The notes beneath the pieces were generated by a model. That model ran no database searches. It saw nothing but the letters and a program-made list of their open reading frames with translations, and was not told the DNA's origin. The position numbers and the translations under genes are program-made. Positions 3,443 to 57,499 of a stretch of 64,000 nt of DNA are shown piece after piece. Location of the stretch: positions 46,889 to 110,888 of IMG/VR virus record IMGVR_UViG_3300046000_004279; one strand, 5' to 3'. Within the stretch, counting starts at the first letter, position 1. Each line of letters starts with the position of its first letter. Source of the stretch: a virus.

Positions 3443-3467
3443 GATACTGTAGTAAAGAGGAAAACAC

Positions 3468-4096: not shown

Positions 4097-4100
4097 CCGT

Positions 4101-4176: not shown

Positions 4177-4183
4177 AATATAT

Positions 4184-4258: not shown

Positions 4259-4280
4259 AATATACGTCAACACTATTGGT

Positions 4281-5405: not shown

Positions 5406-5426
5406 ACTATACTATATAATCATATT

Positions 5427-5501: not shown

Positions 5502-5506
5502 ATTTC

Positions 5507-5582: not shown

Positions 5583-5603
5583 TTTTACATTATAGGAGTT
5601 ACA

Positions 5604-5966: not shown

Positions 5967-5987
5967 TCATACAATTTAGTATTAACG

Positions 5988-6010
5988 CCCCGTAGCTTAT
6001 GGCTACGGGG
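5988..6010 (+). terminator. stem-loop after speD
   Basis: A perfect 9-bp stem CCCCGTAGC/GCTACGGGG with a TTATG loop follows speD by about 20 nt. The trailing sequence is TTGAACTCGTTTAT, with only a weak T-run. It may be a weak terminator or an mRNA-stabilising hairpin separating speD from the radical-SAM operon. Confidence 0.6.
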
Positions 6011-6034
6011 TTGAACTCGTTTATAAGTAGCAGT

Positions 6035-6847
6035 ATGACAAGAACAACACCTTTACCATTCTATCGACCTGAAGATCCATTCTTCTTATATCATGATCTG
6101 TATCCAACAAATCAGGTAAAGCTGTGGTTGGATATTTCAACACATTGCAATGCAAAATGCCCACAATGTCACAGAACAGATGCTAATGGATTAGGTAAAT
6201 CCGATTGGTTACCTGTTGTGCAGTGGTCTTTTGAACAATTCAAGTTTGCATTTCCTCCCAAGACTCTACAGATGTTCAAAGAGATTCAGATCTGCGGTAC
6301 GTGGGGTGATCCTATGATGAACAAAGACATCTATGAGATCATGGAATACATTATGGATAACAGCCGAGGAATCCACGTACTGTTGAACACCAATGGCAGT
6401 ATTCGTGACGAAGAGTGGTGGTGGAAGTTCGGCACAAAGGTCCGTAACCGTTGCACAGTGTTCTGGGCAATTGAGGGGATCACCAACGAACAACATGCAA
6501 TGTATCGTCAGAACACCGACCTTGATAAGGTTCTACGCAACATGGAATCGTTCTCTGCTGCTGGTGGCATAAGCGAAGTATTTACAGTTGTGTTTAAGCA
6601 CAATGAGAAAGATATGTACAACATCGCCAAGGTTAGCAAAGACCTCGGTGCAAGGCAGATCATGTTTGTTCAGTCAAATAGGTTCTACAGACATTCTAAG
6701 TTTGACTTTGTTGATGATCAAGGTGTTGAACAGTCACTATATAGAGCAGAACTACCACCCAACAAAGAGTTCTATTGGAAATCGTGGGATTTGAATAACC
6801 CTGTTGCTATGGAGATTATAAAGAATGAAGCCAGTCGAACGCAATAA
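6035..6847 (+). CDS. radical SAM core protein (split enzyme, pair 1)
   Basis: The 270-residue protein has the radical-SAM cluster motif CNAKCPQC (C38, C42, C45), the ligands of the [4Fe-4S] cluster that cleaves SAM to a 5'-deoxyadenosyl radical. GTWGDPMMN replaces the usual GGEP strand, and a barrel of alternating strands follows. It lacks a C-terminal auxiliary-cluster domain, which is instead encoded by the next, overlapping gene. ATG 6035 is preferred because the longer frame from 5999 starts inside the terminator hairpin. A TATAAGTA box (6022-6029) lies just upstream but would leave almost no leader. Substrate unknown; 8405-9151 is a paralogue. Confidence 0.88.
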   Translation: MTRTTPLPFYRPEDPFFLYHDLYPTNQVKLWLDISTHCNAKCPQCHRTDANGLGKSDWLPVVQWSFEQFKFAFPPKTLQMFKEIQICGTWGDPMMNKDIYEIMEYIMDNSRGIHVLLNTNGSIRDEEWWWKFGTKVRNRCTVFWAIEGITNEQHAMYRQNTDLDKVLRNMESFSAAGGISEVFTVVFKHNEKDMYNIAKVSKDLGARQIMFVQSNRFYRHSKFDFVDDQGVEQSLYRAELPPNKEFYWKSWDLNNPVAMEIIKNEASRTQ

Positions 6848-7232
6848 GTGTGGGGTTGTTTGCGAATGGATGCAGACTGGTCGCATCTTAATTAATCCTG
6901 ATGGGCAAGTGTTACCTTGCTGTTACCTAGCAAATGTGATGTACATGGTTAACAAGCTAGGCACACCCGAGCAGGTGTTGGCTAATAAGAACAATCTAAC
7001 AGACCAGATTGGCCAACGCAACCTGATCCAAAAAGAGTTCTATGAAGAGCCAGTGTTGGTTGAGTATCTTGAGAACAAAGAAAAGTACAGCGTGTTTCAC
7101 ACACCATTCGAAGAAATCATTAATAGTGATTGGTTTACTAAAACATTACCACAATCTTGGGATGATTCTGATAGATTGGTATTACAGTGTGCACAACACT
7201 GTGGAACGGTAAAGCATCGTGGCAGAAAGTAA
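6825..7232 (+). CDS. stand-alone SPASM-like auxiliary Fe-S domain (pair 1)
   Basis: The 135-residue protein is a separate SPASM-type domain: C13 in CEWMQ, the strand GRILINPDG, then PCCYLAN (C32, C33) and C122/C126 near the end. SPASM domains normally follow the radical-SAM core in one chain and bind auxiliary [4Fe-4S] clusters that help hold the substrate. Here the frame is +1 relative to the core gene and overlaps it by 23 nt. GGAG lies 10 nt before the ATG, so independent, coupled translation is likely. The two products probably form one enzyme. A frameshift fusion is possible. The paralogous pair downstream is split at the same place. Confidence 0.78.
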   Translation: MKPVERNKCGVVCEWMQTGRILINPDGQVLPCCYLANVMYMVNKLGTPEQVLANKNNLTDQIGQRNLIQKEFYEEPVLVEYLENKEKYSVFHTPFEEIINSDWFTKTLPQSWDDSDRLVLQCAQHCGTVKHRGRK

Positions 7233-8412
7233 ATTCTGCCCGCTTCCTTGGTTTAACATTACTACAGATGTAAACGGATCTGTTAGACCATGTTGTAGAT
7301 ATGCTCAACCTAGTGAGCAAGTTGATCACAAAATGCCTTGGTTGCAAGATGGTAGCATAAAGTCACTATGGAATGGTCCTGAGATGAGAGGCTTGCGTAA
7401 AGCTTTTCTCAATGGCGAGCAACCAGCCGACTGTAGTTGGTGTTGGAAAGAAGAAGATAACAATATCAAAAGCTACAGACAATTACACATTGATGAGTAT
7501 AGTAGCGATTATGATAATGTTGATTTAACAACTGATTATTCACCAAATCCAATAGTGTTTGACCTAAAACTATCTAATGTGTGCAATTTAAAATGTAGGA
7601 TGTGTGGTCCAACAGCTTCTAGTTCTATCTTAAAAGAACAAAAGACTTACAAATATTTTACAGACCGCGATAAAAAAGAACACGAATACTGGCTAACTAA
7701 TAAAATTCTTGGAACACATAATGAAAAAGATTTCATGGAGTGGTTACCATCTATTGTTGAACTTCAATTTACTGGTGGTGAGCCATTAGTAAGCCCAGAA
7801 AATAAACAATTAATAAAATTAATCTCAGAAACTGAATATGCAAAAAACATTAGTATTCAATTAAACACCAATGCTACACATTTTAACACATCATTTGTTG
7901 AACAATTAAAGAAATTTAAAAAGATTCATATAGACGCTAGTATTGACGATATTGGACCCCGAATTGAATATGCTCGACATGGGTGCAATTGGGAAAACTT
8001 GAATAATAATTTAAAAAGATACAACAGCATAGAAGAAATCAAACTTAACATATGGGCTACGGTAAATAATTACAACATTTGGTATTTGGATGATTTGATT
8101 AATTATTGTGAAGAAAATAATATCGAACTGGCCTTGGGGGCTTTGCACACTCCTAGTGAATTGTCAATTCAATACTTACCAGAACATTTAAAAGATGCTA
8201 TTCGCGAAAAGTATATAAAACCAATTCACTTAGATCCTGTTGCAAATGAATTACGCGCTAAAAGATTAAAACCTATTATTAATTTCTTGGACGCTTCTAA
8301 TGAAAACCGTCTTAAAGAATTTTTAAAAACAACTTGGGTCTATGATCGAATTCGTAAAGAAAAATTTAAAGATGTATTTCCAGAGTGGAGAGATATGATT
8401 TACTATGGATGA
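7219..8412 (+). CDS. N-terminal-twitch radical SAM protein
   Basis: The 397-residue protein starts with a SPASM/twitch-like cysteine domain (C7 in FCPLPW, C25/C26 in RPCCRY, C72 and C75). The radical-SAM core follows, with CNLKCRMC (C122, C126, C129) and TGGEP (185-189). This order defines the twitch-domain radical SAM group, whose members are mostly uncharacterised. GTG is the likely start and overlaps the upstream gene by 14 nt. The second two-thirds of the gene is much more AT-rich than its neighbours, suggesting separate acquisition. Substrate unknown. Confidence 0.85.
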   Translation: MAESKFCPLPWFNITTDVNGSVRPCCRYAQPSEQVDHKMPWLQDGSIKSLWNGPEMRGLRKAFLNGEQPADCSWCWKEEDNNIKSYRQLHIDEYSSDYDNVDLTTDYSPNPIVFDLKLSNVCNLKCRMCGPTASSSILKEQKTYKYFTDRDKKEHEYWLTNKILGTHNEKDFMEWLPSIVELQFTGGEPLVSPENKQLIKLISETEYAKNISIQLNTNATHFNTSFVEQLKKFKKIHIDASIDDIGPRIEYARHGCNWENLNNNLKRYNSIEEIKLNIWATVNNYNIWYLDDLINYCEENNIELALGALHTPSELSIQYLPEHLKDAIREKYIKPIHLDPVANELRAKRLKPIINFLDASNENRLKEFLKTTWVYDRIRKEKFKDVFPEWRDMIYYG

Positions 8413-9151
8413 TTATAAAAGTCTTCTTGATAAGCGACAGCTAACAATGTGGTTGGACATATCAACATATTGTAATGCTGGTTGTCCTCAATGTCACAGA
8501 ACAAACCCAAACGGGTTAGATAAGATCTATTGGTTGCCGCTTGTGCAGTGGTCAATCGATGACTTTAAAAGAGCATTCCCGATCTCATCCATGGCGAGAA
8601 TTGACAAGTTTGATATTTGTGGTACGTGGGGTGATCCTATGATGAACAAAGACATCTATGAGATTGTCGAATACATCATAGAGAATTCTGAATGTACAGT
8701 ACAACTTCACACAAACGGTAGCATGAGAGACAATGACTTTTGGTGGAACCTAGGCGTCCTTTGTGGAAAACGATTGAATGTTCAATTCACAGTTGATGGT
8801 GTTACTGAACAAGAACACGCGTTGTATAGACAAAAAACAAGCCTTGCAAAAACCCTATCTAACATGTTGACATTAACAAGTACGAATGCTACAGCGGGTG
8901 TGTACACTGTGATATTTGAACACAACGAAAGATCTATACAAGATATCGCAAAACTATCTCGTGATCATGGTGCACACTATATAACATTTGTGCCTTCAAA
9001 TAGATTCAAAGTTAATGATGAAGAATTCAATTTTTTTAAATTTACTGATGATAAGGGTGCGGAACAGATGTTTGTTAAGTCAAATTTAAAAAAATACTTA
9101 ACAGGTGCGCTTACTGATAAATTTATTGAAAGTCTTGCCCATGTCTTGTAA
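8405..9151 (+). CDS. radical SAM core protein (split enzyme, pair 2)
   Basis: The 248-residue protein is a paralogue of the gene at 6035. It shares the WLDIST.CNA.CPQCHRT start (C23, C27, C30) and the same GTWGDPMMNKDIYEI segment. Like its paralogue it ends just after the barrel, with no auxiliary domain. It overlaps the preceding gene by 8 nt and the following SPASM-like gene by 11 nt. The duplication kept the split arrangement. Role and substrate unknown. Confidence 0.87.
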   Translation: MDDYKSLLDKRQLTMWLDISTYCNAGCPQCHRTNPNGLDKIYWLPLVQWSIDDFKRAFPISSMARIDKFDICGTWGDPMMNKDIYEIVEYIIENSECTVQLHTNGSMRDNDFWWNLGVLCGKRLNVQFTVDGVTEQEHALYRQKTSLAKTLSNMLTLTSTNATAGVYTVIFEHNERSIQDIAKLSRDHGAHYITFVPSNRFKVNDEEFNFFKFTDDKGAEQMFVKSNLKKYLTGALTDKFIESLAHVL

Positions 9152-9521
9152 AATTGAATGTGAATGGATGCAGAGTAAAAGAATCCTTGTCAATCCTGAT
9201 GGTCAAGTGTGGCCTTGTTGTTATCTTGCTAACAGTACATACATGCGTGCTGCATTAGGTTATCCAGAATCTTATACATCAAAAGAGACGTATAGAATTG
9301 AAAATCAGATTATAAACCTTGAAGATGCTGCTGTACGTACTGGCCAACAGGTTCTGTTAAAAGAATATTTTGATGAGAAAGAACAGTATAATATATTCAA
9401 TCATACGATTGATGAGATTGTTGAATCAAAGTGGTTTGCTGAGACATTACCAAAATCATGGGACGAACCAGAAAGAGTGCTATATCAATGCAAGATCAAT
9501 TGTTCGAAATCGGAAACCTAA
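9141..9521 (+). CDS. stand-alone SPASM-like auxiliary Fe-S domain (pair 2)
   Basis: The 126-residue protein mirrors the SPASM-like protein of pair 1: CEWMQ, a KRILVNPDGQ strand, PCCYLAN and C-terminal cysteines (QCKINC). The start is taken as ATG 9141 (MSCKIECEW), which lies in the last codons of the radical-SAM core gene. A GTG at 9105 would give 12 more residues without known motifs. The frame relation to the core gene is again +1. Confidence 0.76.
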   Translation: MSCKIECEWMQSKRILVNPDGQVWPCCYLANSTYMRAALGYPESYTSKETYRIENQIINLEDAAVRTGQQVLLKEYFDEKEQYNIFNHTIDEIVESKWFAETLPKSWDEPERVLYQCKINCSKSET

Positions 9522-10555
9522 AGACTAGGTGTAAAGCGCCGTTTAACAATCTGTACTTCTCTACATTCGGCAAAGCGGGCCCGTGCTGGCTGCAAGTTAA
9601 TGTCACATCAGATTGGAGTCACACAACATCAATCAAAGACATATGGAACGGACCTGAGTTTAACAAGATCCGCGAAGATCTACTCAACGACAAGTTTTGC
9701 GGTAAATGTGAGATCTGCAAGACAAACTGGGATGACAACGTTTGGCCCCTCGCGCAGGCGTATGACAAGTTTGGTGTACAAGGATATCCCGAATGGCCAT
9801 CTTTGTTTGAGTTAGAGTTAAGCAACCAATGTAATCTTGAGTGCACGATGTGCAGTGGATATCTAAGCAGTGGTATTCGTAAGAATAGAGAAAAACTGCC
9901 ACCACTACCAATGATGTATGATCAGACATTCGTTGATCAGTTGACCGAGTTTGTTCCACATCTGGAAGAAGTACGATTCAATGGTGGTGAGCCATTTGCT
10001 CAGAAGATTGTGCTTGACATTTGTGACATGGTTGCGGGAATCAATCCAGGATTGAAGATCAACATTGCGACCAACGGAACAGTATACAACAAACGCGTTG
10101 AGAAGATCCTACGCCAGAACAATGTACACATGAATGTCAGTATTGACAGCTTGATAAAGGAAAGATATGAAGCAATTCGTATCAATGCAAACTTTGATCA
10201 GCTAATGGCTAACTTTGAGATCTTCCACAAGTATAGTATGGAAGGAAATAAAGAGATGGCTGTAATGGTAAATCCAATGCGCAACAATTGGGATGAGATG
10301 GTTGACTTTTTGCAGTTTGCAAATGATCGTAACATAAATCTTTGGTACAACACAATCAAGTATCCTGAGCATCTTGCAATATGGAATCTTGATTGTGATA
10401 AGTTGGTGGAAATATGTGATACTCTATCTGTAAAGTTAGATCAATACACGCGAAGTGTTAAACATCGTAAGTTCGACAAAGATAACACCTCTACGACTAA
10501 GCATTTGATTGAGAAACAAATAAAGACATGGTTGTTGGATAGCTACACAAGATGA
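9488..10555 (+). CDS. N-terminal-twitch radical SAM protein
   Basis: The 355-residue protein begins with a twitch-type cysteine domain (CKAPFNN, a following PCW, then a CGKCEIC cluster). The core follows, with CNLECTMC (C115, C119, C122 from the chosen start) and NGGEP. ATG 9488 is preferred because the conserved CKAPF block begins soon after it; ATG 9458 would add 10 residues. It overlaps the SPASM-like gene upstream and ends on an ATGA overlap with the next gene. It is homologous in layout to the proteins at 7219 and 10552 but clearly diverged. Substrate unknown. Confidence 0.85.
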   Translation: MQDQLFEIGNLKTRCKAPFNNLYFSTFGKAGPCWLQVNVTSDWSHTTSIKDIWNGPEFNKIREDLLNDKFCGKCEICKTNWDDNVWPLAQAYDKFGVQGYPEWPSLFELELSNQCNLECTMCSGYLSSGIRKNREKLPPLPMMYDQTFVDQLTEFVPHLEEVRFNGGEPFAQKIVLDICDMVAGINPGLKINIATNGTVYNKRVEKILRQNNVHMNVSIDSLIKERYEAIRINANFDQLMANFEIFHKYSMEGNKEMAVMVNPMRNNWDEMVDFLQFANDRNINLWYNTIKYPEHLAIWNLDCDKLVEICDTLSVKLDQYTRSVKHRKFDKDNTSTTKHLIEKQIKTWLLDSYTR

Positions 10556-11784
10556 GTCAAAAAGAATTTGAAAAGCGTAAAAAATATCTTTGCAAGGCCC
10601 CGTTTTCAGGTCTCACTGTTAACCCAACGGGATCTATAACTCTATGTTGTAGTGGTGGACCAGTAACAACTCCTCTTGGTCATATTAGTAAAGTTGACAG
10701 TCTTCAACAGTTTTACAACAGTGAGATAATGGAAAATGTTCGCATTCTTCACGAAAACAAAGCTATAGAACAATCTGTCTGTGCGGGTTGTTATAGACAA
10801 TATGCTGCTGGAAAACACAATATGATGGCCATTTTTAACAACTATTGGCATTGGTCTCGAAACAATTTTGATAATGATTGGTATGCTAGAAAAGACGGTA
10901 TAGATCGGCCATTGAGATTTCTTGAATATACGTGTAGCAACATTTGTAATCAAACGTGCGCGTCCTGTAGCAGTTGGTTTAGCTCTAAGTGGCGCGACTA
11001 TGAGTTAGCATTTACTCTCGACCAACAACATAAATTCGACAAAACCCCTAAACCCATTTTGAGGTTGGGGGAAACGGATATTGATAAGATCATTGATGTT
11101 CTTCCCCACTTAGATTTTCTATCAATGAAGGGGGGCGAACCTTGGGCGGATAAGAACAACGTTAAAATTCTTCAAAAATTGCTAGAAGTTAATCCATCAT
11201 GCACTGTCGATATTGTTTCTAATATGCAATCAATTCCAGAAAGCACTTGGAAAATGCTTGGTGATGTGGACCATAGTTTAACAAAGCTTTGGTTATCCGC
11301 TAGTATAGATGGTGTAGGTGAAGAGTATAATTGGATTCGCGGCGGAAATTTCAACAAAACGGTTGAAAATCTTGAAAGATGGCATGAAGTTACAAAAAAG
11401 AAAATTCGCATTAATCCTTTTGTGTCGATCTTTAACTTTTTTTCTCTAGACAAGATTGTAGATTATTTCGTATCAAAACCTTATGTTGTAGGTGTTAATA
11501 TTTCTAATATAGGCACTTACCCCACATATATTAAATCTCAAAATCTACCAAAATATATAATATTTGAAAAACAAGAATATTATAGAACTAAGTTTAAATC
11601 TTACGACCAAAGCAAATTATTTTGCACCCCTTTATTAGACGATATGAACGAAAGGGAAACTAATTTTATAGAATTAAAAAAATCATTTGAGTGGATTGAA
11701 GTTGTTAACAAGATGAGAGGTTTTGATTTGTTGGATCATGTTCCTGAATTAAAACGTATCAAAGAAGTTATTTGCGATGGGTGA
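10552..11784 (+). CDS. N-terminal-twitch radical SAM protein
   Basis: The 410-residue protein has an N-terminal twitch domain (CKAPFSG at C14, TLCCSGG, CAGC near 77-80) and a radical-SAM core with CNQTCASC (C132, C136, C139) and KGGEP. It starts at the ATGA overlap with the upstream gene and overlaps the carbamoyltransferase gene by 8 nt. Base composition is more AT-rich than that of 8405, 9458 and 11777, especially in the 3' third. It is probably co-translated with its neighbours. Substrate unknown. Confidence 0.85.
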   Translation: MSQKEFEKRKKYLCKAPFSGLTVNPTGSITLCCSGGPVTTPLGHISKVDSLQQFYNSEIMENVRILHENKAIEQSVCAGCYRQYAAGKHNMMAIFNNYWHWSRNNFDNDWYARKDGIDRPLRFLEYTCSNICNQTCASCSSWFSSKWRDYELAFTLDQQHKFDKTPKPILRLGETDIDKIIDVLPHLDFLSMKGGEPWADKNNVKILQKLLEVNPSCTVDIVSNMQSIPESTWKMLGDVDHSLTKLWLSASIDGVGEEYNWIRGGNFNKTVENLERWHEVTKKKIRINPFVSIFNFFSLDKIVDYFVSKPYVVGVNISNIGTYPTYIKSQNLPKYIIFEKQEYYRTKFKSYDQSKLFCTPLLDDMNERETNFIELKKSFEWIEVVNKMRGFDLLDHVPELKRIKEVICDG

Positions 11785-13123
11785 TCAGACATTAACAGGT
11801 CTATCATATGGATTCCATGATGCAGCCATCACTGTTATTGATGGCGATAAAATTATAGAATGTCATCACGCAGAACGATTCTCTAAGATCAAAAACGATC
11901 ACAATCTTTGGCCCGAGTTCAAAACCTATGGTAAGACTGCCTACTATGAACGACCGTTTCTAAAGAACACTCGTAGATTGTTTGCAGGTCAGTCTTGGGT
12001 TAAGAAACCAAAACACGACTATTACGTTCCACATCATTGGTCACACGTTGCTGCTGGATACTACACGAGACCGTTCGTTGAAGAACCTGTATGTGTTGTG
12101 ATTGACGCCGTTGGCGAATGGGACACCGCATCTATTTGGTGGAAAAAGCAGAAGGTGTGGTCAACAAAATACCCTAGATCTCTTGGTCTGTTGTATAGTG
12201 CCATTACCGACTACGTTGGTTTGAAACCAATGGAAGATGAATACATTCTTATGGGGATGGCTGCATATGGCAACTACAGCATTAGGTTAGAAGATGCTAT
12301 ACAGAATCTTATGAAGACCAACCTACACAAAGGATGTCGTTGGGATTATCGACATCTTGGTCAAAACTATAATGACCTTGCTGCAACTGTTCAAAGTGTG
12401 CTAGAAGATAAGATTGTAGAGATTATGGCAATCGCTCGTCAATACTCAAACTATTTGTGTTACGGTGGTGGAGTGGCTCTCAATTGTGTAGCAAACTCAA
12501 AGATCCGACCAATGTTCACAGATGTGTGGATCTTTCCTAGCCCTAGTGATAGTGGCAGTGCATTAGGAGCTGCTGCTGCAATCAACGACAGGATCTTAGA
12601 TTGGCAAGGACCTTATCTTGGTTACGACATTAATAGGGAAATCAATCCAAAAGAAGTAGCACAATATCTCGTTGAAAATAGTGTCTGTGGTGTTGCAAAT
12701 GGTCGTGCAGAGTTTGGACCTCGTGCGTTAGGCAACCGTAGTCTTTTGGCTGATTGTAGACTGCCAATCAACGATACGGTTAACACAATCAAAAAGCGGC
12801 AGAAGTTTAGACCATTCGCCCCCGCAATACTAGCAGAGTTTGCTGATCAGTACTTTGATGGTCCAATGAATGAATATATGCAGTTTGTTGCGAAAGCAAA
12901 GCACGACTACAGATCTGTTACTCACGTTGACGGAACATCGCGAGTTCAGTTGGTAAAGGCTAACTGCAAGTCGGTGTTGAGACCAATACTTGAAGAGTGG
13001 TACGAGTTAACGGGTTGCCCTATGTTGCTAAACACCAGCCTAAATATAAAAGGTCAGCCTTTGGTAAACGATTGGAATGATGCAGAGGCTTTTGCAACTA
13101 CAAATAAAGTAAAGGTTTTTTAA
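11777..13123 (+). CDS. carbamoyltransferase (NodU/CmcH/TobZ family)
   Basis: The 448-residue protein has the two-domain family layout. The N-terminal Kae1-like part has GLSYGFHDAA (H14) and the metal-binding pattern HHWSHVAAGYY, then CYGGGVALNCVAN. The C-terminal part has FGPRALGNRSLLAD. Family enzymes use carbamoyl phosphate and ATP to make carbamoyl-adenylate and transfer the carbamoyl group to a hydroxyl of a sugar or small molecule. It is shorter than typical family members, which I recall as well over 500 residues, but the motifs are intact. Its place directly after five radical-SAM cores suggests a common modification pathway. Target (glycan, nucleotide or DNA base) unknown. Confidence 0.9.
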   Translation: MGDQTLTGLSYGFHDAAITVIDGDKIIECHHAERFSKIKNDHNLWPEFKTYGKTAYYERPFLKNTRRLFAGQSWVKKPKHDYYVPHHWSHVAAGYYTRPFVEEPVCVVIDAVGEWDTASIWWKKQKVWSTKYPRSLGLLYSAITDYVGLKPMEDEYILMGMAAYGNYSIRLEDAIQNLMKTNLHKGCRWDYRHLGQNYNDLAATVQSVLEDKIVEIMAIARQYSNYLCYGGGVALNCVANSKIRPMFTDVWIFPSPSDSGSALGAAAAINDRILDWQGPYLGYDINREINPKEVAQYLVENSVCGVANGRAEFGPRALGNRSLLADCRLPINDTVNTIKKRQKFRPFAPAILAEFADQYFDGPMNEYMQFVAKAKHDYRSVTHVDGTSRVQLVKANCKSVLRPILEEWYELTGCPMLLNTSLNIKGQPLVNDWNDAEAFATTNKVKVF

Positions 13124-13951
13124 ATGAGTTATTTGCTAGCATCGGGATGTAGTTGGACTGACGCCAATTTTAAATCTCCTATTATACCAACCTATGATGT
13201 TTCATTTCCAAAGTGGCCAGCGGTGCTAGGTGAAAAAATGGGAATACAAAAAGTTGTAAATGTTGGCGTTAACGGCGCATCTAACGATTCTATTTTTAAA
13301 AAATGTTACGATGAGATTTCTAAACAAAAACCAAAGTTGGTGTGTATATTAATTACCGATTGGTCAAGACATTCTGTTTTTGATAGTTACGCTTTAAACA
13401 TTATTCATCTTTTAGCAACAGACCGTTCTGTAGCGAACGATGATTTATCCGAAGAGTTGTATTTGCTGCGCGAATGGGTAGGACATGAACATGATGCTGT
13501 GCAGTTTGCTAAACATTTATGGTCATCCACTTTATGTGTAGAAGATATTGTAAGAAATACGTTGCGAGAAATTTGGTTGTTCCAGAATTTTTGTCAACAC
13601 AACAATATTGATTATATTATAATGTCAGGATTGAATCCTATTTATGATTACGGTTTAACTCTTTTAAATAGATTTGAATCCGCCGATTCGACAATTACAA
13701 ATTTTAGTAGTTATATAAAACAGACTCTAACTTCCCCCTATGCAGATAAACTCAATGATAAGAATTTGCTTGGATGGCCATTCTTTGCAGAAATTGGTGG
13801 ATATAGCGTTTGGTCAGATTGGGCAGACAAGGGATACGACGATGTTTTTGTCCATAAAGATTTTGATAGTCACCCCAATGGTTTAGGTCATCAACTAATA
13901 GCAGAAATGTTTTATAAAGGATATCAAGACATATATGGTAAAATATCTTAA
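13124..13951 (+). CDS. SGNH/GDSL hydrolase-like protein
   Basis: The 275-residue protein has block I as GCSWT (8-12), block II as GVNGASND, and the C-terminal D-x-HPN block as DSHPNGLGH. These supply the Ser, Gly, Asn and Asp/His of SGNH hydrolases, which act as esterases or acyl/acetyl hydrolases, often on glycans. The ATG directly follows the carbamoyltransferase stop, so it is the last gene of the radical-SAM operon. The sequence is AT-rich compared with its neighbour. It could remove or transfer an acyl group in the same pathway, but that is inference. Confidence 0.75.
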   Translation: MSYLLASGCSWTDANFKSPIIPTYDVSFPKWPAVLGEKMGIQKVVNVGVNGASNDSIFKKCYDEISKQKPKLVCILITDWSRHSVFDSYALNIIHLLATDRSVANDDLSEELYLLREWVGHEHDAVQFAKHLWSSTLCVEDIVRNTLREIWLFQNFCQHNNIDYIIMSGLNPIYDYGLTLLNRFESADSTITNFSSYIKQTLTSPYADKLNDKNLLGWPFFAEIGGYSVWSDWADKGYDDVFVHKDFDSHPNGLGHQLIAEMFYKGYQDIYGKIS

Positions 13952-13958
13952 ATATCAT

Positions 13959-13987
13959 TTGACAATTATAAGAATGTACTATAATAT
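13959..13987 (+). promoter_or_regulatory. sigma70-type promoter
   Basis: A perfect TTGACA (13959-13964) is followed by TAATAT (13982-13987) after 17 bp, or by TATAAT (13980-13985) after 15 bp. It begins a new unit after the radical-SAM operon. Confidence 0.72.
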
Positions 13988-14053
13988 ATGGTTTAAACGT
14001 AAAAAACGCAAACCAAATCAACTTTACATTTATGAACAACGCAAGGATAAGTG

Positions 14054-14275
14054 ATGTTTACAGCGATAGTTTTAATGTGCACAACAGAGATGTGGTGCTA
14101 CACAATTGTTCAAGAACAAGGGTTCTACGAATCTGAGAAGCAGTGTGTTGCAGCGATTGAAGAGTTGCTAACCAATGAAGAGTTTGATCCTGTGTATCGT
14201 TTTTACGAAGAAGGTCAAACGTTCGATGTGTACAGTTCAGAATGCGTTGAGTGGAAATTCTCGCGACCAACATAA
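14054..14275 (+). CDS. hypothetical small cysteine-containing protein
   Basis: The 73-residue protein starts with a short hydrophobic segment (MFTAIVLMC) and has four cysteines, two in CTTEMWC. It could be membrane-anchored or exported with disulphides. ATG 14054 has AAGGA 6 nt upstream, better than the GTG 3 nt earlier. It is the only gene between two promoters. Not recognised. Confidence 0.65.
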   Translation: MFTAIVLMCTTEMWCYTIVQEQGFYESEKQCVAAIEELLTNEEFDPVYRFYEEGQTFDVYSSECVEWKFSRPT

Positions 14276-14341: not shown

Positions 14342-14827
14342 ATGTTCACTGATCGTCAAGTTGAAGAAATCGTAGATCTACTCGCTGGCTTGGAAAAGAC
14401 TTCGCGTGTATATCTTGGTTGCGATTCGGTTCGTTACCGTAGAGATAATGCGAATTGGGCTCGCTACGCTACCGTTGCAATCGTTCACATGAACGGTAAG
14501 AACGGCTGCCGTGTGTTCCACACTATCTCACACGAACCAGATTACGATGCAAAGAAGAACCGTCCAAAGGTTCGTATGATGAACGAAGTTGCAAAAGTTT
14601 GTAACTTGTACAACCAACTAATCCCTTTTATTGATGAGTACAATGTTGAGATTCATCTTGACATTAATACAGACCCCAAGCACGGCTCGAACTGTGCTGC
14701 TACCGAAGCTGCTGGTTACGTTCTTGGTATGACTGGTGTTGAACCTAAGCTCAAGCCAGAAAGCTGGGCTGCTAGCTTTGGTGCAGACGGTATCGTACAT
14801 GGTCGTGGTATTAGAGAGGAAGCATAA
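14342..14827 (+). CDS. YkuK/DUF458-type RNase H-like protein
   Basis: The 161-residue protein has the family's N-terminal YLGCDSVR (acidic residue on the first RNase H strand), a central HLDIN segment, and the C-terminal KPESWAASFGADGIVHG block. DUF458 proteins are predicted RNase H-fold nucleases of unclear substrate. Here one might process phage or host RNA or hybrids, but this is inference. Its last A is shared with the ATG of the next gene (TAATG), so the two are coupled. Confidence 0.8.
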   Translation: MFTDRQVEEIVDLLAGLEKTSRVYLGCDSVRYRRDNANWARYATVAIVHMNGKNGCRVFHTISHEPDYDAKKNRPKVRMMNEVAKVCNLYNQLIPFIDEYNVEIHLDINTDPKHGSNCAATEAAGYVLGMTGVEPKLKPESWAASFGADGIVHGRGIREEA

Positions 14828-15585
14828 TGAAGGTTGTACTGGTCACTGGTGGATTTGATCCTATTCATAGTGGACATATCGAGTACTTTAAGGAAGCTGC
14901 TCAACACGGTGACTTGGTAGTTGTTGGGTTAAACTCAGATGAATGGCTGACTCGTAAGAAAGGTCAGCCATTTATGTCTTTTGCTGAACGCAAAGCTGTT
15001 ATTGAAACTTTGTGGATGGTTGATGAAGTAATTGCATTTGATGATACAGATAACACCGCTTGTAAAGCTATTGAGTATCTTCTTGAAGATCCTAACATTT
15101 CAATTATATTTGCCAATGGTGGAGATCGTACAAACACATCAACGCCTGAGTACGAACGATTCAAAGATAACCCTCGTGTCGAGTTTGCGTGGGGTGTTGG
15201 TGGTCGAGATAAGAAGAACAGCTCAAGTTGGGTTCTAGATAACTGGAAGAACGCTAAAACAATCCGACCGTGGGGTTGGTATCGTGTTCTTGATGATAAA
15301 GATGGATACAAAGTCAAAGAGCTTGTAATCCAGCCTAGCCAAAGTCTATCTGACCAGCGACATATGCTACGTAATGAGTACTGGTATGTCCTAAGTGGCT
15401 GTTGTAAAATTGATATAGAGTCGCTACACTTTAGAAAGACGTTCGAGCTCTATCAGCTTAGTGAGGGGTTGGATATTCCTGTGAACACGTGGCATAGAGC
15501 ATATAACGATACAGACAAACCTTGCCATATTCTTGAGGTGCAGTTTGGATCAAAATGTGTTGAAGATGATATTGAAAGGAGATAA
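14827..15585 (+). CDS. cytidylyltransferase-like / cupin fusion protein
   Basis: The 252-residue protein has an N-terminal nucleotidyltransferase domain (1-140) with the GGFDPIHSGH motif (T/H-x-G-H type) and FANGGDR, like glycerol-3-phosphate or heptose-phosphate cytidylyl/adenylyltransferases. A C-terminal cupin (150-245) follows, with RPWGWYRVL and WYVLSGCCKI. This is like the cupin half of type II mannose-6-phosphate isomerases/mannose-1-phosphate guanylyltransferases. The fusion suggests activation of a sugar or polyol phosphate. It is unlike ordinary NadR/NMN enzymes. Metal ligands of the cupin look incomplete. Pathway partners could be the glycan genes elsewhere in the phage. Confidence 0.78.
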   Translation: MKVVLVTGGFDPIHSGHIEYFKEAAQHGDLVVVGLNSDEWLTRKKGQPFMSFAERKAVIETLWMVDEVIAFDDTDNTACKAIEYLLEDPNISIIFANGGDRTNTSTPEYERFKDNPRVEFAWGVGGRDKKNSSSWVLDNWKNAKTIRPWGWYRVLDDKDGYKVKELVIQPSQSLSDQRHMLRNEYWYVLSGCCKIDIESLHFRKTFELYQLSEGLDIPVNTWHRAYNDTDKPCHILEVQFGSKCVEDDIERR

Positions 15586-48813: not shown

Positions 48814-51800
48814 ATGACAAGAGTAGTAATCGGACCATCAACAACACTAACCGCCTGGAAGAATTCTACAAACTCGCTAGATTCTGATGTTGGTGTACGT
48901 ACATCGCTTACTGCGACCAAGAAATCTACGCTTGTAGCGGCGATTAACGAACTTGATTCCGACCTATTTGGATCTGGGGGTGGTAGTGCTAGAACCTCTC
49001 TTACAACTGCTTCTAAGACGATCTTAGGTGCTGTCAACGAACTTGATAGTGATATAGGTGCAAGATCTTCACTAACAACTGCAACCAAGGTCAGCCTTGT
49101 TTTAGCAATCAACGAACATGATGCTGAGCTCGGAACGATTACATCTGGCGCGATGGGCACTACAGCTTCCACCGTAAGCGGCGCGATCAAAGAACACGAT
49201 TCTGACATTGGCACTCGTTCGAGTCTAACGACTGCAATTAAAACAAATCTTGTTGCGGCTATTAACGAGCTTGATAGTGATATTGGTGCACGTTCTAGTT
49301 TGACAACTGCAACCAAGGTCAGCCTTGTTTTAGCGATCAACGAACACGATGCGGAACTTGGTACTATTACATCCGGTGCAATGGGTACGACTGCTTCAAC
49401 CGTAAGTGGAGCTATTAAAGAACACGATTCTGATATTGGTACTCGTTCAAGTTTAACAACTGCAATTAAAACAAATCTTGTTGCAGCTATCAACGAGATC
49501 GACAGTGATGTTGGTAACCGCTCAAGTCTAACAACTGCAATTAAGTCGACTCTTGTGGCCGCTGTCAATGAGCTGGATAGTGATATTGGCGCGAGAGCCT
49601 CGCTAACTACTGCAACCAAGGTTAGTCTTGTTCTAGCTATTAATGAACATGATGCAGAGCTTGGCACTATTACTTCTGGTGCAATGGGAACCACAGCATC
49701 TACTGTTAGCGGTGCTATCAAAGAACACGATAGCGATATCGGTACTCGTTCGAGTCTAACGACTGCAATTAAAACAAATCTTGTTGCAGCTATTAACGAA
49801 GTTGACTCTGATGTTGGTAACCGATCAAGTCTAACAACTGCAATTAAAACAAATCTTGTTGCAGCAGTTAACGAGCTTGATAGTGACATTGGCAACCGTT
49901 CAAGTTTAACAACAGTTAACAAATCTACTCTTGTGGCCGCTGTTAACGAAGTTGACTCTGATGTTGGAAGTCGTTCTAGTTTGACAACTGCAACCAAAGT
50001 CAGTCTTGTTCTAGCTATTAATGAACATGACGCTGAGCTTGGAACGATTACATCTGGTGCAATGGGCACTACGGCATCTACTGTTAGTGGTGCAATTAAA
50101 GAGCATGACTCTGACATCGGTACTCGTTCGAGTCTAACGACTGCAATTAAAACAAATCTTGTCGCATCTATCAACGAGCTTGATAGTGACATTGGCAATC
50201 GTTCAAGTCTAACAACTGCGATTAAGTCGACTCTTGTTGCAGCAGTTAATGAGCTGGACAGCGACATTGGCAACCGCTCTAGTTTGACAACTACGATCAA
50301 ATCTACGCTTGTTGCTGCTGTTAACGAAGTTGACTCTGATATTGGTGCACGTTCTAGTTTAACTACAACTAACAAGTCAACGATTGTTGCAGCAGTTAAT
50401 GAACTTAAAGCTCGTATTGACTCTGATGGGGGTCTTATAGATCAAGCGGTTCTAACAACATCAACTGTAAGATTTGATGGTGGTGTAAACGTTGACAACA
50501 TTAACATCAACGGGACCACAATTGCTTTGTCAAGTGGTTCTCTAACTTTTGATGCGGCCTCAAACATTGTCCTAGATGCTGATAGTGCGACATGGACGTT
50601 TGCTGACAATGGTGTAACGAGAGCACAGTTATCTGGAACCACAAACATAACACTTGGCGGCCTTGCAGGAACATTTACAGTCGATGCAGTTTCAAATATT
50701 AACCTTGATGCAGCAACCGGTATTATTCAATTCCAAGAGAACGGCGTAACATCTGGTTCTATTGTAATGGATAGTGCTGCAAACATTACGTTTGACGGAC
50801 CTGGCAAGATTTATATTGATGCTGATAGTGGTGAAATTGGTTTTAAAAATAACGGAACGCAGTTTGGTGCTGTCACAGATAGTGCTAGCAACTTGGTTCT
50901 TAAATCTGGATCGACCAAGGCTGTTAAGTTTGCAAGTGCTAACGCAGTGTTCCAAGGAACAATTAGATCAACAACTTCTCTAGATACAACCGCGCAAGAT
51001 TTTGCTGCCGCTATTAATGAATTGAAGCTACGGGTGGATTTGGTTGACAGTGGTGGTGGACTAATTCTCGATAGTGTATTTAGTGCAATAGGTACCTTAA
51101 CCAACCTTAACACTGCTGTTAAAACAGATCTCGTGTCTGCAATCAATGACTTCTATGATTCGGTTTATCCAGCCATATTCACAAGCAGTGTTGATTCTTC
51201 ACGTATAACAAGCCTTGCGGTATCAACTGCAAAGATACAAAACTTGGCTGTTACTTCTGCTAAGATTGCAAACGATGGTGTCACAACTACAAAGATCGCT
51301 GATGACAATGTAACATATGCAAAAATTCAAAATGTCGGTGCAGCAAATAGAGTACTTGGATCTAAAACAGTTGGCGGGATTATTACTGAATTACAAGTTG
51401 ACTCCGATATCTTGGGTGACAACTCTGTAATTGCAACTAAGATTAAAGACAGAGCTGTTACAAACACTAAGATTGCAACATCAGCTATTACCGATAGTGC
51501 TCTTGCGACTAACGCTATCTCAAATACTAAGATTCAAAATAACGCTGTTTCTCTCGCAAAGCTGGTTAACTCTACTACTGCTAAGCGTGTTATTGCTTCT
51601 GTAACATCCGGTACTTTCTATTCAGAACAACAAGTAGATTCTGATATGTTGGGATCGTTGTCCGTATCATCAGCTAAGATTCAGAACAACGCTGTAGCTC
51701 TTGGAACACAGACCACTGGTAACTATGTTAGTAACGTAACTGCTGCAAACGGTGTTAAAATTACTGGAACAGCAGGCGAGGGTTGGACACCGATTGTATC

Positions 51801-52740
51801 TCTTGACTCTACAGGCACAGGCACAATTGGTAACTTAACCGTTGGTAGCAATCTTACCGTAAGCGGTAACTTGACTGTATCTGGAACAACCACAAGCATT
51901 AACACTGAGACAATTACTCTAAACGATAACATTATCGTATTGAATAACAATGCTACAGGTGCTGCATCCCAAGACGCTGGTATTGAAATTGAGCGTGGAA
52001 CAGATTCTAACGTATCGATTCTTTGGAATGAGACAACCAATCGTTGGACGTTTACAAATAGTGGAACAACACTTGGTCCATTCTATAATATTCCAACGCC
52101 AGATGAATATATCGACAGTGCAACATCTAAGTTTCCAACTACGTTTACTTATACCGCTGGAACAACTGCGGGGCCAACTGGATCTCTAACAGGCACAAAT
52201 CTTACTGCAATTTCGTTTGCAGCAATTCCGTCTGCAGGAGCTGGAGCTTCTGGTATTATTACAACGGGTGCTCAGACGATTGCGGGTGCTAAGACATTTA
52301 GCAGTACAATCACTGGATCAATTGATGGTAACGCTGGAACTGTTACAAATGGTGTGTATACAACGGGTGCTCAGACGATTGCGGGTGTTAAGACATTTAG
52401 TAGTACAATCAGTGGTTCAATTGACGGTAACGCTGGAACGGCTACAGCTCTAGCAACAGGCCGAAACTTTTCATTGACTGGCGAAGTTACTGCACCCGCA
52501 ATTAGTTTTACAGGTGCTGGTGCTGTAGCACTAGTAGCCACGATTGCGGCAGATGCGGTCGACTCTTCTAATATTCTTGCACTGTCAATATCGTCTGCAA
52601 AGATTCAAGCCAACGCTGTTGGGTTTACTCAAATGGCCGATTCTGCTGTTGGAAGTAACGAATTGCGCCAATCTGTTGAACTAATCATATATAACTCTGT
52701 AGGAACAGCTTTGAAGACTCTTTATGGCGCAGGTGTTTAA
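48814..52740 (+). CDS. repetitive long tail fibre protein
   Basis: The 1,308-residue protein has three parts. Residues 1-530 are built of 25-residue repeats (SSLTTAIKTNLVAAINELDS type) and a 26-residue variant (TSGAMGTTASTVSGAIKEH). Residues about 530-760 are beta-rich with Asp/Ala strands. The C-terminal part has AKIQNLAVTSAKIAN-like short repeats, TITLNDNIIVLNNNA, and TIAGAKTFSST copies. This is a trimeric, adhesin-like tail fibre. Its C-terminal modules are nearly identical to segments in the gene at 59386. No chaperone domain is recognised. Confidence 0.82.
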   Translation: MTRVVIGPSTTLTAWKNSTNSLDSDVGVRTSLTATKKSTLVAAINELDSDLFGSGGGSARTSLTTASKTILGAVNELDSDIGARSSLTTATKVSLVLAINEHDAELGTITSGAMGTTASTVSGAIKEHDSDIGTRSSLTTAIKTNLVAAINELDSDIGARSSLTTATKVSLVLAINEHDAELGTITSGAMGTTASTVSGAIKEHDSDIGTRSSLTTAIKTNLVAAINEIDSDVGNRSSLTTAIKSTLVAAVNELDSDIGARASLTTATKVSLVLAINEHDAELGTITSGAMGTTASTVSGAIKEHDSDIGTRSSLTTAIKTNLVAAINEVDSDVGNRSSLTTAIKTNLVAAVNELDSDIGNRSSLTTVNKSTLVAAVNEVDSDVGSRSSLTTATKVSLVLAINEHDAELGTITSGAMGTTASTVSGAIKEHDSDIGTRSSLTTAIKTNLVASINELDSDIGNRSSLTTAIKSTLVAAVNELDSDIGNRSSLTTTIKSTLVAAVNEVDSDIGARSSLTTTNKSTIVAAVNELKARIDSDGGLIDQAVLTTSTVRFDGGVNVDNININGTTIALSSGSLTFDAASNIVLDADSATWTFADNGVTRAQLSGTTNITLGGLAGTFTVDAVSNINLDAATGIIQFQENGVTSGSIVMDSAANITFDGPGKIYIDADSGEIGFKNNGTQFGAVTDSASNLVLKSGSTKAVKFASANAVFQGTIRSTTSLDTTAQDFAAAINELKLRVDLVDSGGGLILDSVFSAIGTLTNLNTAVKTDLVSAINDFYDSVYPAIFTSSVDSSRITSLAVSTAKIQNLAVTSAKIANDGVTTTKIADDNVTYAKIQNVGAANRVLGSKTVGGIITELQVDSDILGDNSVIATKIKDRAVTNTKIATSAITDSALATNAISNTKIQNNAVSLAKLVNSTTAKRVIASVTSGTFYSEQQVDSDMLGSLSVSSAKIQNNAVALGTQTTGNYVSNVTAANGVKITGTAGEGWTPIVSLDSTGTGTIGNLTVGSNLTVSGNLTVSGTTTSINTETITLNDNIIVLNNNATGAASQDAGIEIERGTDSNVSILWNETTNRWTFTNSGTTLGPFYNIPTPDEYIDSATSKFPTTFTYTAGTTAGPTGSLTGTNLTAISFAAIPSAGAGASGIITTGAQTIAGAKTFSSTITGSIDGNAGTVTNGVYTTGAQTIAGVKTFSSTISGSIDGNAGTATALATGRNFSLTGEVTAPAISFTGAGAVALVATIAADAVDSSNILALSISSAKIQANAVGFTQMADSAVGSNELRQSVELIIYNSVGTALKTLYGAGV
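48990..50400 (+). repeat. tandem 75-bp repeats in a fibre gene
   Basis: About eleven 25-codon units and four composite units (25 + 26 codons) occur in tandem. The composite core (GCAACCAAGGTCAGCCTTGT type) recurs near 49081, 49306, 49610 and 49988. Copies differ mainly at third codon positions, which shows selection on the protein and an old expansion. Confidence 0.85.
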
Positions 52741-52743
52741 TAA

Positions 52744-53682
52744 ATGGCAGTCGTAACTCCTCTCAAGCTCGACGGATCTAATAATCTTCGCGCGATGGAC
52801 GCTACAGATATTGCGAACATCAAACTTGAGATGATTCGTCAGTATGGCTTGAGTCCATCTGTTACTCTGGCATATTCTGCTGGTACAGGAAATTTACCCG
52901 CGATCTCAGACACTCGTTATCAAGCTGGTGCTGCAATCCTTTCAAATACTGCATTTGCTGCTGAAACTACTACTGCTGAACCAACTCAAGTTACTGTTAA
53001 CTATCAAAACGTGTTGGAAACGTTCACATCGTTAGCAGCACCAGCAGATACAAGCAACGTAGCGTTTCCTGTATATTTAACAGGTGCGAACCAAGTTCAA
53101 GCTATGTCTTTAACCGATATGTATGACACGTTTGTTAATGACGTTATTACTACGTTGACAACAAACAGCTTTAGCACATCACAAGCTGGAACGTATACCG
53201 TTCACACCGCAACCTCGTTAGCTGGGGCAACTCTAATCAATGCCAGCCCAATATTTACCGATACAAGAGCTGATACCACATTATATACTGGCGCTGGTAT
53301 GCCAGAAACTCTAGACCAACCAATAACTATAACTAACTACTATCTGTTTAGAGTTGACGGTGCGTCAGTTGGAACAATTCCAACTCCATTACAGGCGTTG
53401 ACAAATGGTAACTTGCAGGAGTATACTACTGCAGCGTTCCAAACTCTATTACAAAACCTTGTAAGATATTATGCAGCAAACGTTGTCGGCGCTAAGATTG
53501 ATTACAACATTACAACCTCTGCCACGGGTGGAAGAGGTTCGGGTATGGTTAACACAGACTTTACGTCTGTTACTGGCGCATATACAACACTTCAAACACT
53601 TGACAACTATTATGCGCAAGAGTTCCCCAACGGCACTGTGTCGACAATTGCAACAAACTATTTAAACTGCTTAAGAGTATAA
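52744..53682 (+). CDS. virion structural protein
   Basis: The 312-residue protein starts VVTPLKLDGSNNLRAMDATD, a phrase typical of fibre-region structural proteins, and has Ala/Thr-rich strands, then a conserved-looking QNLVRYYAANVVGAKIDYN and a C-terminal DNYYAQEFPNGTVST. No enzymatic motif is seen. It begins 3 nt after the fibre gene and probably caps or connects the fibre. Confidence 0.68.
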   Translation: MAVVTPLKLDGSNNLRAMDATDIANIKLEMIRQYGLSPSVTLAYSAGTGNLPAISDTRYQAGAAILSNTAFAAETTTAEPTQVTVNYQNVLETFTSLAAPADTSNVAFPVYLTGANQVQAMSLTDMYDTFVNDVITTLTTNSFSTSQAGTYTVHTATSLAGATLINASPIFTDTRADTTLYTGAGMPETLDQPITITNYYLFRVDGASVGTIPTPLQALTNGNLQEYTTAAFQTLLQNLVRYYAANVVGAKIDYNITTSATGGRGSGMVNTDFTSVTGAYTTLQTLDNYYAQEFPNGTVSTIATNYLNCLRV

Positions 53683-53691
53683 GGATTTATT

Positions 53692-54282
53692 ATGGCTATC
53701 TTCTCAGGTAAACAAATTTTAAGAGCTGTTTTTACCAACAATGCTAATGATACAATCGAGTTGGTATATGATCATAAAAGTGATGGTAAAAAGCCAGAGT
53801 ATATCAGCATATGGATTCCCGCAACTGATCCTACAAATGAAAATCTAATAGCTCTTAAAGAAGCTGGTTGGTCTTTTGAGAGAATTCAAAAGGAAACACA
53901 TGAAAACATCGACGCGATGCTAAAGGCTCGCGCAGCTCAAATTCACCAACAAATTGATGCTAAGGTAAAAGAACAAGTTGATCGTTATTATGAAATCATC
54001 AATAGTGAAACAGAGATGACGAGAGAGCAGATTGCAACAGCATACGAACAACGTTATGCTGAGATGATCAACACTGGTCCAGCGATTACTACAACAGTTT
54101 TTCAATCTGTACTAGATAATAATGTTGACGAAGAACTATTGTTTAAATCAAAACTAGCTGCATTTGAGATACCAAAAATTAAAGAGTTAAAAGACAGGGC
54201 ATCTAAACAGAAAATTAGAACTGCAAAGTCTTTAATGGAATTGTTTGGAATATTGGATTCGTTATTACAAGAGGTTAAATGA
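53692..54282 (+). CDS. helical structural or assembly protein
   Basis: The 196-residue protein has an N-terminal strand domain (1-70; YISIWIPATDPTNENL) and a long helical region (70-196) with coiled-coil character (ARAAQIHQQIDAKVKEQVDR). It may be a fibre-associated protein or fibre chaperone. It ends on an ATGA overlap with the glycosyltransferase-like gene, linking it to that operon. Confidence 0.65.
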   Translation: MAIFSGKQILRAVFTNNANDTIELVYDHKSDGKKPEYISIWIPATDPTNENLIALKEAGWSFERIQKETHENIDAMLKARAAQIHQQIDAKVKEQVDRYYEIINSETEMTREQIATAYEQRYAEMINTGPAITTTVFQSVLDNNVDEELLFKSKLAAFEIPKIKELKDRASKQKIRTAKSLMELFGILDSLLQEVK

Positions 54283-54941
54283 ATATTATCTTCGTGAATT
54301 TTGGCACCAAGTATACACCTTGGGACGTCAATCGACTTTATGATGGTTTGAAGAAATACGACAAAGGCTTCAAATATTATGTTTACACTGACAATGGTAT
54401 TAAAGATCTGGGGCTATACGGCTTAGATTTTACCGTTGTAAAACCAATGAAACCAAACTTGCCAAAATGGTGGAACAAGCTCGCTATGTTTAGTGAGGCA
54501 TTTCCAGCTAAAGGTAAGAATCTGTATTTTGATTTAGATACTGTTATCAAAGGCGATCCCTTCACGATATTAGATAATATTGATTGGGATAAGTTAACAA
54601 TGATTGACTGTCATTGGAAATCAAAAGATATCGTTCGGTTAACCAACTTGGATGTTACAGTTAACTCATCAGTGTTAGCATGGCATTCAGACAATCCTAA
54701 AATTCATAATATTTGGAACCATTTCAACAGTGGTTACAAAGACTATTATCTAAGAAAATATGTTGGGATCGATAGGTTTTTAGCTCACGAACCTTTTGAA
54801 AAAGATATGTTTGCTTACTTTCCACACGACTACGTTATGTCATATAAGTATGAAAGCCATGATAAAGTGGCCCCTGTGATAACCTTTGAGGAACTTGATT
54901 TTGGATCAATTGATACTGTACAGATCACTCAAGCTAGTTGA
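54279..54941 (+). CDS. glycosyltransferase-like protein (GT-A type)
   Basis: The 220-residue protein has GT-A features: an N-terminal IIFVNFGTKYTPWDVNRLY strand, KLAMFSEAFPAKGKNLYFDL, and then the metal-binding DLDTV. Such enzymes transfer a sugar from a nucleotide donor. The gene starts on ATGA overlap and heads a four-gene operon. Substrate unknown. Confidence 0.75.
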   Translation: MNIIFVNFGTKYTPWDVNRLYDGLKKYDKGFKYYVYTDNGIKDLGLYGLDFTVVKPMKPNLPKWWNKLAMFSEAFPAKGKNLYFDLDTVIKGDPFTILDNIDWDKLTMIDCHWKSKDIVRLTNLDVTVNSSVLAWHSDNPKIHNIWNHFNSGYKDYYLRKYVGIDRFLAHEPFEKDMFAYFPHDYVMSYKYESHDKVAPVITFEELDFGSIDTVQITQAS

Positions 54942-54960
54942 AGAGATCTATGATGAGTCT

Positions 54961-57495: not shown

Positions 57496-57499
57496 TTTA

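Follow-up and report, generated by a model that had tools for sequence, protein, structure and literature searches.

The DNA analysed here, referred to below as the window, is a stretch of 64,000 nucleotides covering bases 46889-110888 of the 110,888-bp IMG/VR virus record IMGVR_UViG_3300046000_004279. As read from the sequence, this record carries T4-type baseplate, tail-fibre and other late genes, and belongs to a marine T4-like phage. The window contains an operon of ten plus-strand genes (Table 1) encoding five radical S-adenosylmethionine (rSAM) proteins (A1, B, C1, D and E), two SPASM partners (A2 and C2), a carbamoyltransferase (CT), an SGNH protein and a peptide of 39 amino acids (aa), hereafter the IY peptide; the operon most likely tailors a surface sugar rather than marking DNA. 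An earlier note on this DNA had described an operon of nine genes. All nine are present where it had placed them, on the plus strand and overlapping or without gaps, but the open reading frame (ORF) of the IY peptide had been overlooked.

Table 1. Features of the window, with positions counted from its first nucleotide
Feature	Position	Strand	Basis or remarks
A1, rSAM core protein without SPASM domain	6035..6847	+	PF04055 38.6 bits; CNAKCPQC; ORF opens at 5999
A2, separate SPASM/twitch-like partner of A1	6825..7232	+	PF13186 26.5 bits
B, N-terminal-twitch rSAM protein	7219..8412	+	NF033640 354 bits (cut-off 170)
C1, second rSAM core protein without SPASM	8405..9151	+	PF04055 32.2 bits
C2, separate SPASM/twitch-like partner of C1	~9141..9521	+	PF13186 27.1 bits; ORF opens at 9105
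D, N-terminal-twitch-like rSAM protein	9458..10555, likely start 9488	+	PF04055 57.8 bits; NF033640 155.6 bits (cut-off 170)
E, N-terminal-twitch rSAM protein	10552..11784	+	NF033640 201 bits
CT, NodU/TobZ-type O-carbamoyltransferase, 448 aa	11777..13123	+	PF16861 157 bits; PF02543 150 bits
SGNH/GDSL-fold protein (predicted), invariant S10, D248, H250	13124..13951	+	motifs, predicted fold
IY peptide, tenth gene, 39-aa basic peptide MVKYLKYHLTIIRMYYNIWFKRKKRKPNQLYIYEQRKDK	13935..14054	+	family defined in this analysis
74-aa ORF	14051..14275	+	overlaps peptide stop; homologues near rSAM genes elsewhere
RNase H-like protein (PF04308)	14342..14827	+	next in transcript direction
Cytidylyltransferase/HldE-type domain fused to mannose-6-phosphate isomerase-type cupin	14827..15585	+	family match; sugar-activating enzyme
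GC-rich 11-bp hairpin directly before operon	5987..6011	+	ATG at 5999 in loop; no T run
Tail fibre protein upstream of glycosyltransferase block	48814..52740	+	phrog_25848 tail fibre, 220 bits
Two fibre-locus proteins, TFa (52744-53682) and TFb (53692-54282)	52744..54282	+	adjoin rSAM genes in relatives
Glycosyltransferase-like fibre-locus gene	54279..54941	+	phrog_1962 glycosyltransferase, E 1.5e-8
Methyltransferase-fold fibre-locus protein	54886..55539	+	model pLDDT 94; Foldseek SAM methyltransferases, TM about 0.6
GTx, GT8-family glycosyltransferase of fibre locus	55536..56399	+	PF01501 29.2 bits, over cut-off
DxD-motif fibre-locus gene, probably glycosyltransferase	56396..57094	+	no family match; synteny
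Fibre assembly protein (57145), small protein (57500) and fibre (57754), closing block	57145..59331	+	phrog_3304 L-shaped tail fiber assembly, phrog_15769; synteny

The five rSAM cores of the earlier description are confirmed, as the CxxxCxxC motif is directly seen to be intact in A1, B, C1, D and E. PF04055 exceeds its cut-off in four of them, and E reaches 24.8 bits, under the cut-off of 29.5. B and E are N-terminal-twitch enzymes as had been proposed, but D falls just below the NF033640 cut-off and is, judging from its sequence, N-terminal-twitch 'like' rather than a strict member of this family; its relatives, 50-62% identical, adjoin A1/A2. A1 and C1 are 48% identical, and A2 and C2 43%. 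The two latter proteins had been read as the SPASM parts of split rSAM enzymes. The split is real, but the label is less exact than 'twitch-like': A2 and C2, which are separate proteins above the Pfam SPASM cut-off, have six cysteines arranged as CX13GX4CC...CX3C and depart from the seven-cysteine SPASM pattern.

Scanning 2.9 million viral contigs with core and SPASM alignments recovered about 150 related loci (designated by L numbers). The core ORF lacks a SPASM part in 128 cases and is fused with it in 24 of 152. The split recurs in 118 complete viral pairs, in which the partner lies in frame +1 (58 pairs), +2 (54) or 0 (6) and a short start/stop overlap of the ATGA type is the commonest arrangement. 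Because frames differ among pairs and overlaps are of the typical start/stop type, both a sequencing or frame error and a programmed frameshift were rejected as causes of the split. As fused homologues exist, the two halves probably act together, and an rSAM enzyme may thus be encoded as separate core and auxiliary-cluster proteins. At two loci (L012:10731-11526 and L018:6559-7377), a single core is followed by two different SPASM partners, which suggests that partners may be exchanged between cores.

A tree of 59 cores shows clustering of the split and of the fused forms, with several switches between them (7 changes for split and 4 for fused, fewer than in any shuffle). The viral cores share one supported side of the tree, away from six bacterial cores, with two exceptions: the viral row L033_14633 lies among the bacterial cores and one 'planctomycete' contig among the viral ones. 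A1 of the window groups (support 100/97) with the cores of L012, L093 and L014, which are placed at tail-fibre loci in those relatives. A scan of bacterial genomes and genome bins gave no relative with a two-sequence alignment and 13 relatives with a 44-sequence alignment. Several of these 13, bin contigs labelled Parcubacteria, Rhodobacteraceae and Planctomycetota (L166, L167, L168 and L169), appear to be viral, with phage-type cores, and L166 has the same length and match as the viral contig L025.

The assignment of the eighth gene to the NodU/TobZ-type carbamoyltransferases is borne out by both Carbam_trans domains and by the metal and ATP/carbamoyl motifs. The HxxxH motif and NTSxN are kept, and these motifs are conserved in 15 relatives. 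CT relatives with solved structures include GdmN, the novobiocin CT and TobZ. The domains and key motifs are common to the TobZ, NodU and GdmN O-carbamoyltransferases, although the window CT is shorter, and its score with NF041651 (nodulation protein NodU) is 131 bits against an equivalog cut-off of 1000. Those three enzymes act on an aminoglycoside, a Nod factor and an ansamycin. The ninth product had been called SGNH-like, which holds weakly by sequence (Pfam 22.7 bits against a cut-off of 32.9) and agrees with its model (predicted local distance difference test, pLDDT, 81.5), which matches GDSL proteins in Foldseek (E 2.8e-6); we thus predict a GDSL/SGNH esterase-like fold. The catalytic Ser of block I (S10) and the Asp/His of block V (D248, H250) are invariant in 21 relatives. 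Single-protein searches of viral contigs with E and with the SGNH protein gave no matches, the patterns being too specific, which was overcome by the use of alignments.

The IY peptide family was found by a search for small conserved ORFs near rSAM genes. In its members, the N-terminal part is basic and hydrophobic, with a mean charge of +7.5, and the motif [FYH][IV]Y[EDK], at or near the C terminus, is almost invariant. The window peptide starts with ATG in an ORF that overlaps the SGNH stop, and ends in ...LYIYEQRKDK. With the window sequence omitted from the model, it was still the best among 1,717 small ORFs of the contig, at a modest E of 0.003; its position beside the SGNH gene, shared with 28 other family members, is the stronger argument for its membership. 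Synonymous differences exceed non-synonymous ones in 14 of 15 peptide pairs, and the family is under purifying selection. Neither Pfam nor PHROGs has a family that includes the window peptide, and a tblastn search of annotated phages with two IY peptides gave no convincing match.

Among 281 nonredundant viral loci, 74 carry the IY peptide. It is strongly associated with CT (65 of 110 loci versus 9 of 171; odds ratio, OR, 26) and with SGNH (52 of 74 versus 22 of 207; OR 20), but only weakly with rSAM genes (OR 2), and 26 of the 74 peptide-bearing loci have no rSAM gene in view. The three genes CT, SGNH and IY peptide recur as a cassette, of which the short peptide family is a marker. The earlier statement that no precursor like those of ribosomally synthesised and post-translationally modified peptides (RiPPs) is present must thus be amended, as a conserved peptide gene closes the operon, although this peptide follows CT and SGNH much more closely than rSAM genes, with which an rSAM RiPP precursor would travel.

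Synteny with relatives is directly observed. Among 47 dereplicated loci selected by their rSAM genes, the commonest neighbours are homologues of window genes at 52.7-59.3 kb, GTx being found in 22 of them. The order fibre-TFa-TFb-GT-MT-GTx-GT-A1-A2-(B, D, E, CT, SGNH)-fibre assembly-fibre (GT, glycosyltransferase; MT, methyltransferase) is kept, whole or mostly, in L012, L014, L036, L045, L058 and L093. In the nearest relatives, the rSAM genes stand between homologues of window genes at 56.4-57.5 kb, after the DxD gene and before fibre assembly. The fibre block of the window (48.8-59.3 kb) keeps the order seen in relatives, but without the rSAM insert.

The earlier note had proposed to search for co-occurrence of these families. 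In IMG/VR contigs, rSAM cores, SPASM partners, twitch rSAM proteins, CT and SGNH do recur together, far above a control gene. Loci were selected in three independent ways, by GTx only, by CT only and by a gp32-like control gene; the selected loci include near-duplicates and are not fully independent of one another, but the contrast is nonetheless large. Fibre genes were found at 72 of the 80 GTx-selected loci, rSAM genes at 53, CT at 25 and SGNH at 19. Within 6 kb of GTx, we counted 98 rSAM, 25 CT and 18 SGNH genes in 802 kb, versus 1, 0 and 0, respectively, in 582 kb around the control gene. Of the 80 CT-selected loci, 34 have an rSAM gene and 26 an SGNH gene within 6 kb. The rSAM enzymes of marine phages are thus tied, with a control, to tail-fibre and glycosyltransferase genes.

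Part of this association was already known, and the term 'undescribed' used in the earlier note is too strong. Passages of PMC7029224 describe a host recognition cluster (HRC) in pelagimyophages, a hypervariable island in which several GT8 glycosyltransferases and rSAM cassettes accompany tail fibres. The HRC lies between VrlC and gp14. Like the present case, it brings genes of these three kinds together in T4-like marine phages, but the window operon stands outside the fibre block; the CT-SGNH-peptide cassette and the split core/SPASM pairs are not mentioned in the relevant HRC passages of that paper. Similarly, many rSAM genes in one marine T4-like virus have been reported for an environmental genome with 12 of them, discussed, in the part of the article concerned, as Fe-S metabolism without glycan context (PMC5332604).

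Two cultured phages provide further comparisons. Pelagibacter phage Mosig EXVC030M (MT647606) has three MoaA-like rSAM genes in an island near VrlC, together with a GTx homologue, a DegT/ArnB-type sugar aminotransferase, methyltransferases, a desaturase and hydroxylases. Its SGNH homologue is 25% identical to that of the window and its CT 32% (a distant type, about 30%), and the IY peptide was looked for in Mosig and not found. An analogous island in Campylobacter phage CP220 (NC_027997; L010, record 70.7-84.8 kb) contains at least five rSAM genes with nucleotide-diphospho-sugar-transferase-type genes; it has an amidinotransferase-like gene instead of CT, and no SGNH relative was detected.

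Sugar enzymes are recurrent neighbours across relatives, namely UDP-glucose/GDP-mannose dehydrogenase and nucleoside-diphosphate-sugar epimerase. For example, CT adjoins a UDP-sugar dehydrogenase in HTVC008M, and in the window the HldE-type nucleotidyltransferase/cupin lies downstream of the operon. Glycosyltransferase-like neighbours, read by eye, were also seen beside fused bacterial relatives in Paraburkholderia fynbosensis and in metagenome-assembled genomes of Hyphomicrobiales and Myxococcales. In the virus record itself, outside the window, a sixth rSAM gene of the B12-binding type (contig 3340-5232) stands in a group (L163:3340-13374, contig 3.3-13.4 kb) with two DesA-type desaturases, two Asp/Arg-hydroxylase-family proteins and an FkbM methyltransferase. 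This group is likely a further part of the island. DesA-type desaturases occur at 9 of 80 GTx loci and hydroxylases at 9 of 80, versus 0 of 80 control loci; together with a weak LpxO match, this points to a membrane glycolipid target.

The earlier note had suggested a multi-step mark on a glycan, a nucleotide or a DNA base. Of these, a glycan is favoured by the context of fibre, GT8 and sugar-nucleotide genes. Our preferred interpretation, which we advance tentatively, is that the operon belongs to a modular island that tailors a surface glycan and is linked to receptor-binding genes, a host glycan of the lipopolysaccharide (LPS) type being the likeliest target. The substrate and the reactions that we infer would be as follows. 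A1 with A2 and C1 with C2 would work as two-protein enzymes, and B, D and E as single-chain twitch enzymes, catalysing radical steps on intermediates of sugar or glycolipid type, for example dehydration, epimerisation or C-C bond formation. CT would put a carbamoyl group on a hydroxyl, the SGNH protein would add or remove an acyl group, and sugars would be transferred by the glycosyltransferases of the fibre locus and of the host. The IY peptide, with an amphipathic basic helix and a C-terminal IY docking motif, would most likely anchor CT and the SGNH protein at the inner face of the host membrane. Alteration of the host LPS-type glycan in the course of infection would keep progeny or competing phages from rebinding, which would explain the linkage of the operon genes to tail fibres. 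Our preference for this target is based on the enzymes of lipid type and on the peptide, which is basic and membrane-like. The same view, modification of the host O-chain, has been published for pelagimyophage islands in passages of PMC7029224.

Several observations weigh against this interpretation. Although fibre, GT8 and rSAM genes share one island in many relatives, the rSAM operon is 40 kb away from the fibre/GT8 block in this contig. The IY peptide is scarce at GTx loci (7 of 89 versus 67 of 192 elsewhere; at E<0.05, 1 of 80 GTx-selected loci and none of the 80 control loci), so the link of the CT-SGNH-peptide cassette to the fibre locus may be only partial. The cassette also occurs among replication and head genes: in the CT regions L183, L194, L198 and L201 it stands bare amid head, ligase or replication genes, with no rSAM gene in view. 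The LpxO match of one Asp/Arg-hydroxylase-family protein is marginal (E 0.001), and the enrichment of desaturases at GTx loci is small. Finally, cytosolic enzymes without a flippase or ligase could equally act on a virion protein.

This last point leads to virion glycosylation, in which the glycan-tailoring enzymes would decorate phage tail fibres or another virion protein with an unusual carbamoylated sugar and so alter receptor binding. The genes sit amid fibre, fibre-assembly and adhesin genes, so this explanation fits the synteny nearly as well as modification of a host glycan, and the enzymes look soluble and cytosolic (the two desaturases excepted), that is, located where fibres are made. 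There is also a precedent in mycobacteriophages, where virions glycosylated by phage-encoded transferases are known. However, these islands also hold desaturases and LpxO-like hydroxylases, which suggests a lipid-linked target, and CT-SGNH-peptide cassettes are found far from fibre genes too; we regard decoration of the virion as a serious but somewhat unlikely alternative. Hypermodification of DNA, with rSAM enzymes and CT building a modified base such as 5-carbamoyloxymethylcytosine that protects virion DNA, has a precedent in a phage-derived NodU-type CT that carbamoylates 5-hydroxymethylcytosine (5hmC) in DNA (MetaGPA, PMC8670742). The window CT belongs to the same phage-type NodU family, but is only 25% identical to that enzyme over the aligned part and has other neighbours (SGNH, IY peptide, rSAM and sugar enzymes). 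The 5hmC enzyme co-occurs with a thymidylate synthase/dCMP hydroxymethylase homologue, while CTs of unmodified contigs lie near glycosyltransferases (PMC8670742). We detected no match to PF00303, which covers this hallmark hydroxymethylase, in the contig, although the contig is incomplete and this absence is not proof. Taken with the low CT identity, it makes a DNA target highly improbable.

The IY peptide could instead be the substrate. In a RiPP-like pathway, the Tyr/Glu region at its C terminus would be altered by the rSAM-SPASM enzymes, as PqqA is by PqqE or MftA by MftC, and then carbamoylated and acylated. The gene is short, selectively constrained and near-invariant in its C-terminal motif, and lies directly upstream of rSAM cores in several loci (L062, L066, L071 and L162) and of CT in others. 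As in the pyrroloquinoline quinone (PQQ) and mycofactocin systems, a short peptide with a conserved Tyr near the C terminus stands beside rSAM/SPASM genes in some loci, but peptides of the window family follow CT/SGNH rather than rSAM genes, and the SPASM part is here a separate protein. The far closer association with CT and SGNH, the peptide-bearing loci without rSAM genes and the strongly basic N-terminal part all speak against such a pathway, and no protease, transporter or RiPP recognition protein was seen; we consider it quite unlikely. A variant in which CT, SGNH and the peptide of about 40 aa form an undescribed three-gene phage system, with two-protein rSAM enzymes as optional additions, is unlikely as well: the peptide itself would be the acceptor, and radical chemistry, glycosylation or carbamoylation at its conserved C-terminal Tyr would yield a peptide-based cofactor, a signal or a glycan primer. 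Lastly, there may be no joint pathway, the genes being independent auxiliary genes collected in hypervariable regions of T4-like phages. Gene order is indeed variable, subsets are found alone, and insertions of these genes are seen in fibre, replication and tRNA regions alike; but the genes are translationally coupled, show a repeated order, recur jointly in distant phages and are absent around the control gene, which makes this reading very unlikely.

Judged against the open-licence literature that we searched, three things are new, namely the rSAM/SPASM family split into two proteins, the linkage quantified against a control and the cassette of CT, SGNH and IY peptide, whereas rSAM cassettes with GT8 genes in host-recognition islands, rSAM-rich T4-like viruses and long-annotated phage CTs are already known. 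The marine T4-like phages, many of which possess dense sets of rSAM enzymes, rank among the most abundant viruses. The cultured relative Mosig renders the question of surface-glycan tailoring testable; if such tailoring is correct, oxygen-sensitive radical chemistry would extend to phage receptor biology.

Three features at the edges of the operon and of the window complete the description. Directly before the operon, the hairpin at 5987-6011 (folding energy -21.2 kcal/mol for 66 nt, z -2.7) is possibly a terminator or an RNA-processing signal. As its loop holds the ATG at 5999, we judge the start of A1 at 6035, given earlier, to be the more likely one. The 5.6 kb upstream of the operon (window 1-5600) contain ten tRNA genes. 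At the opposite, right contig end, the region 60000-64000 shows many minus-strand ORFs that are repetitive in composition; these ORFs are probably shadows of a repetitive plus-strand structural gene cut by the contig end.

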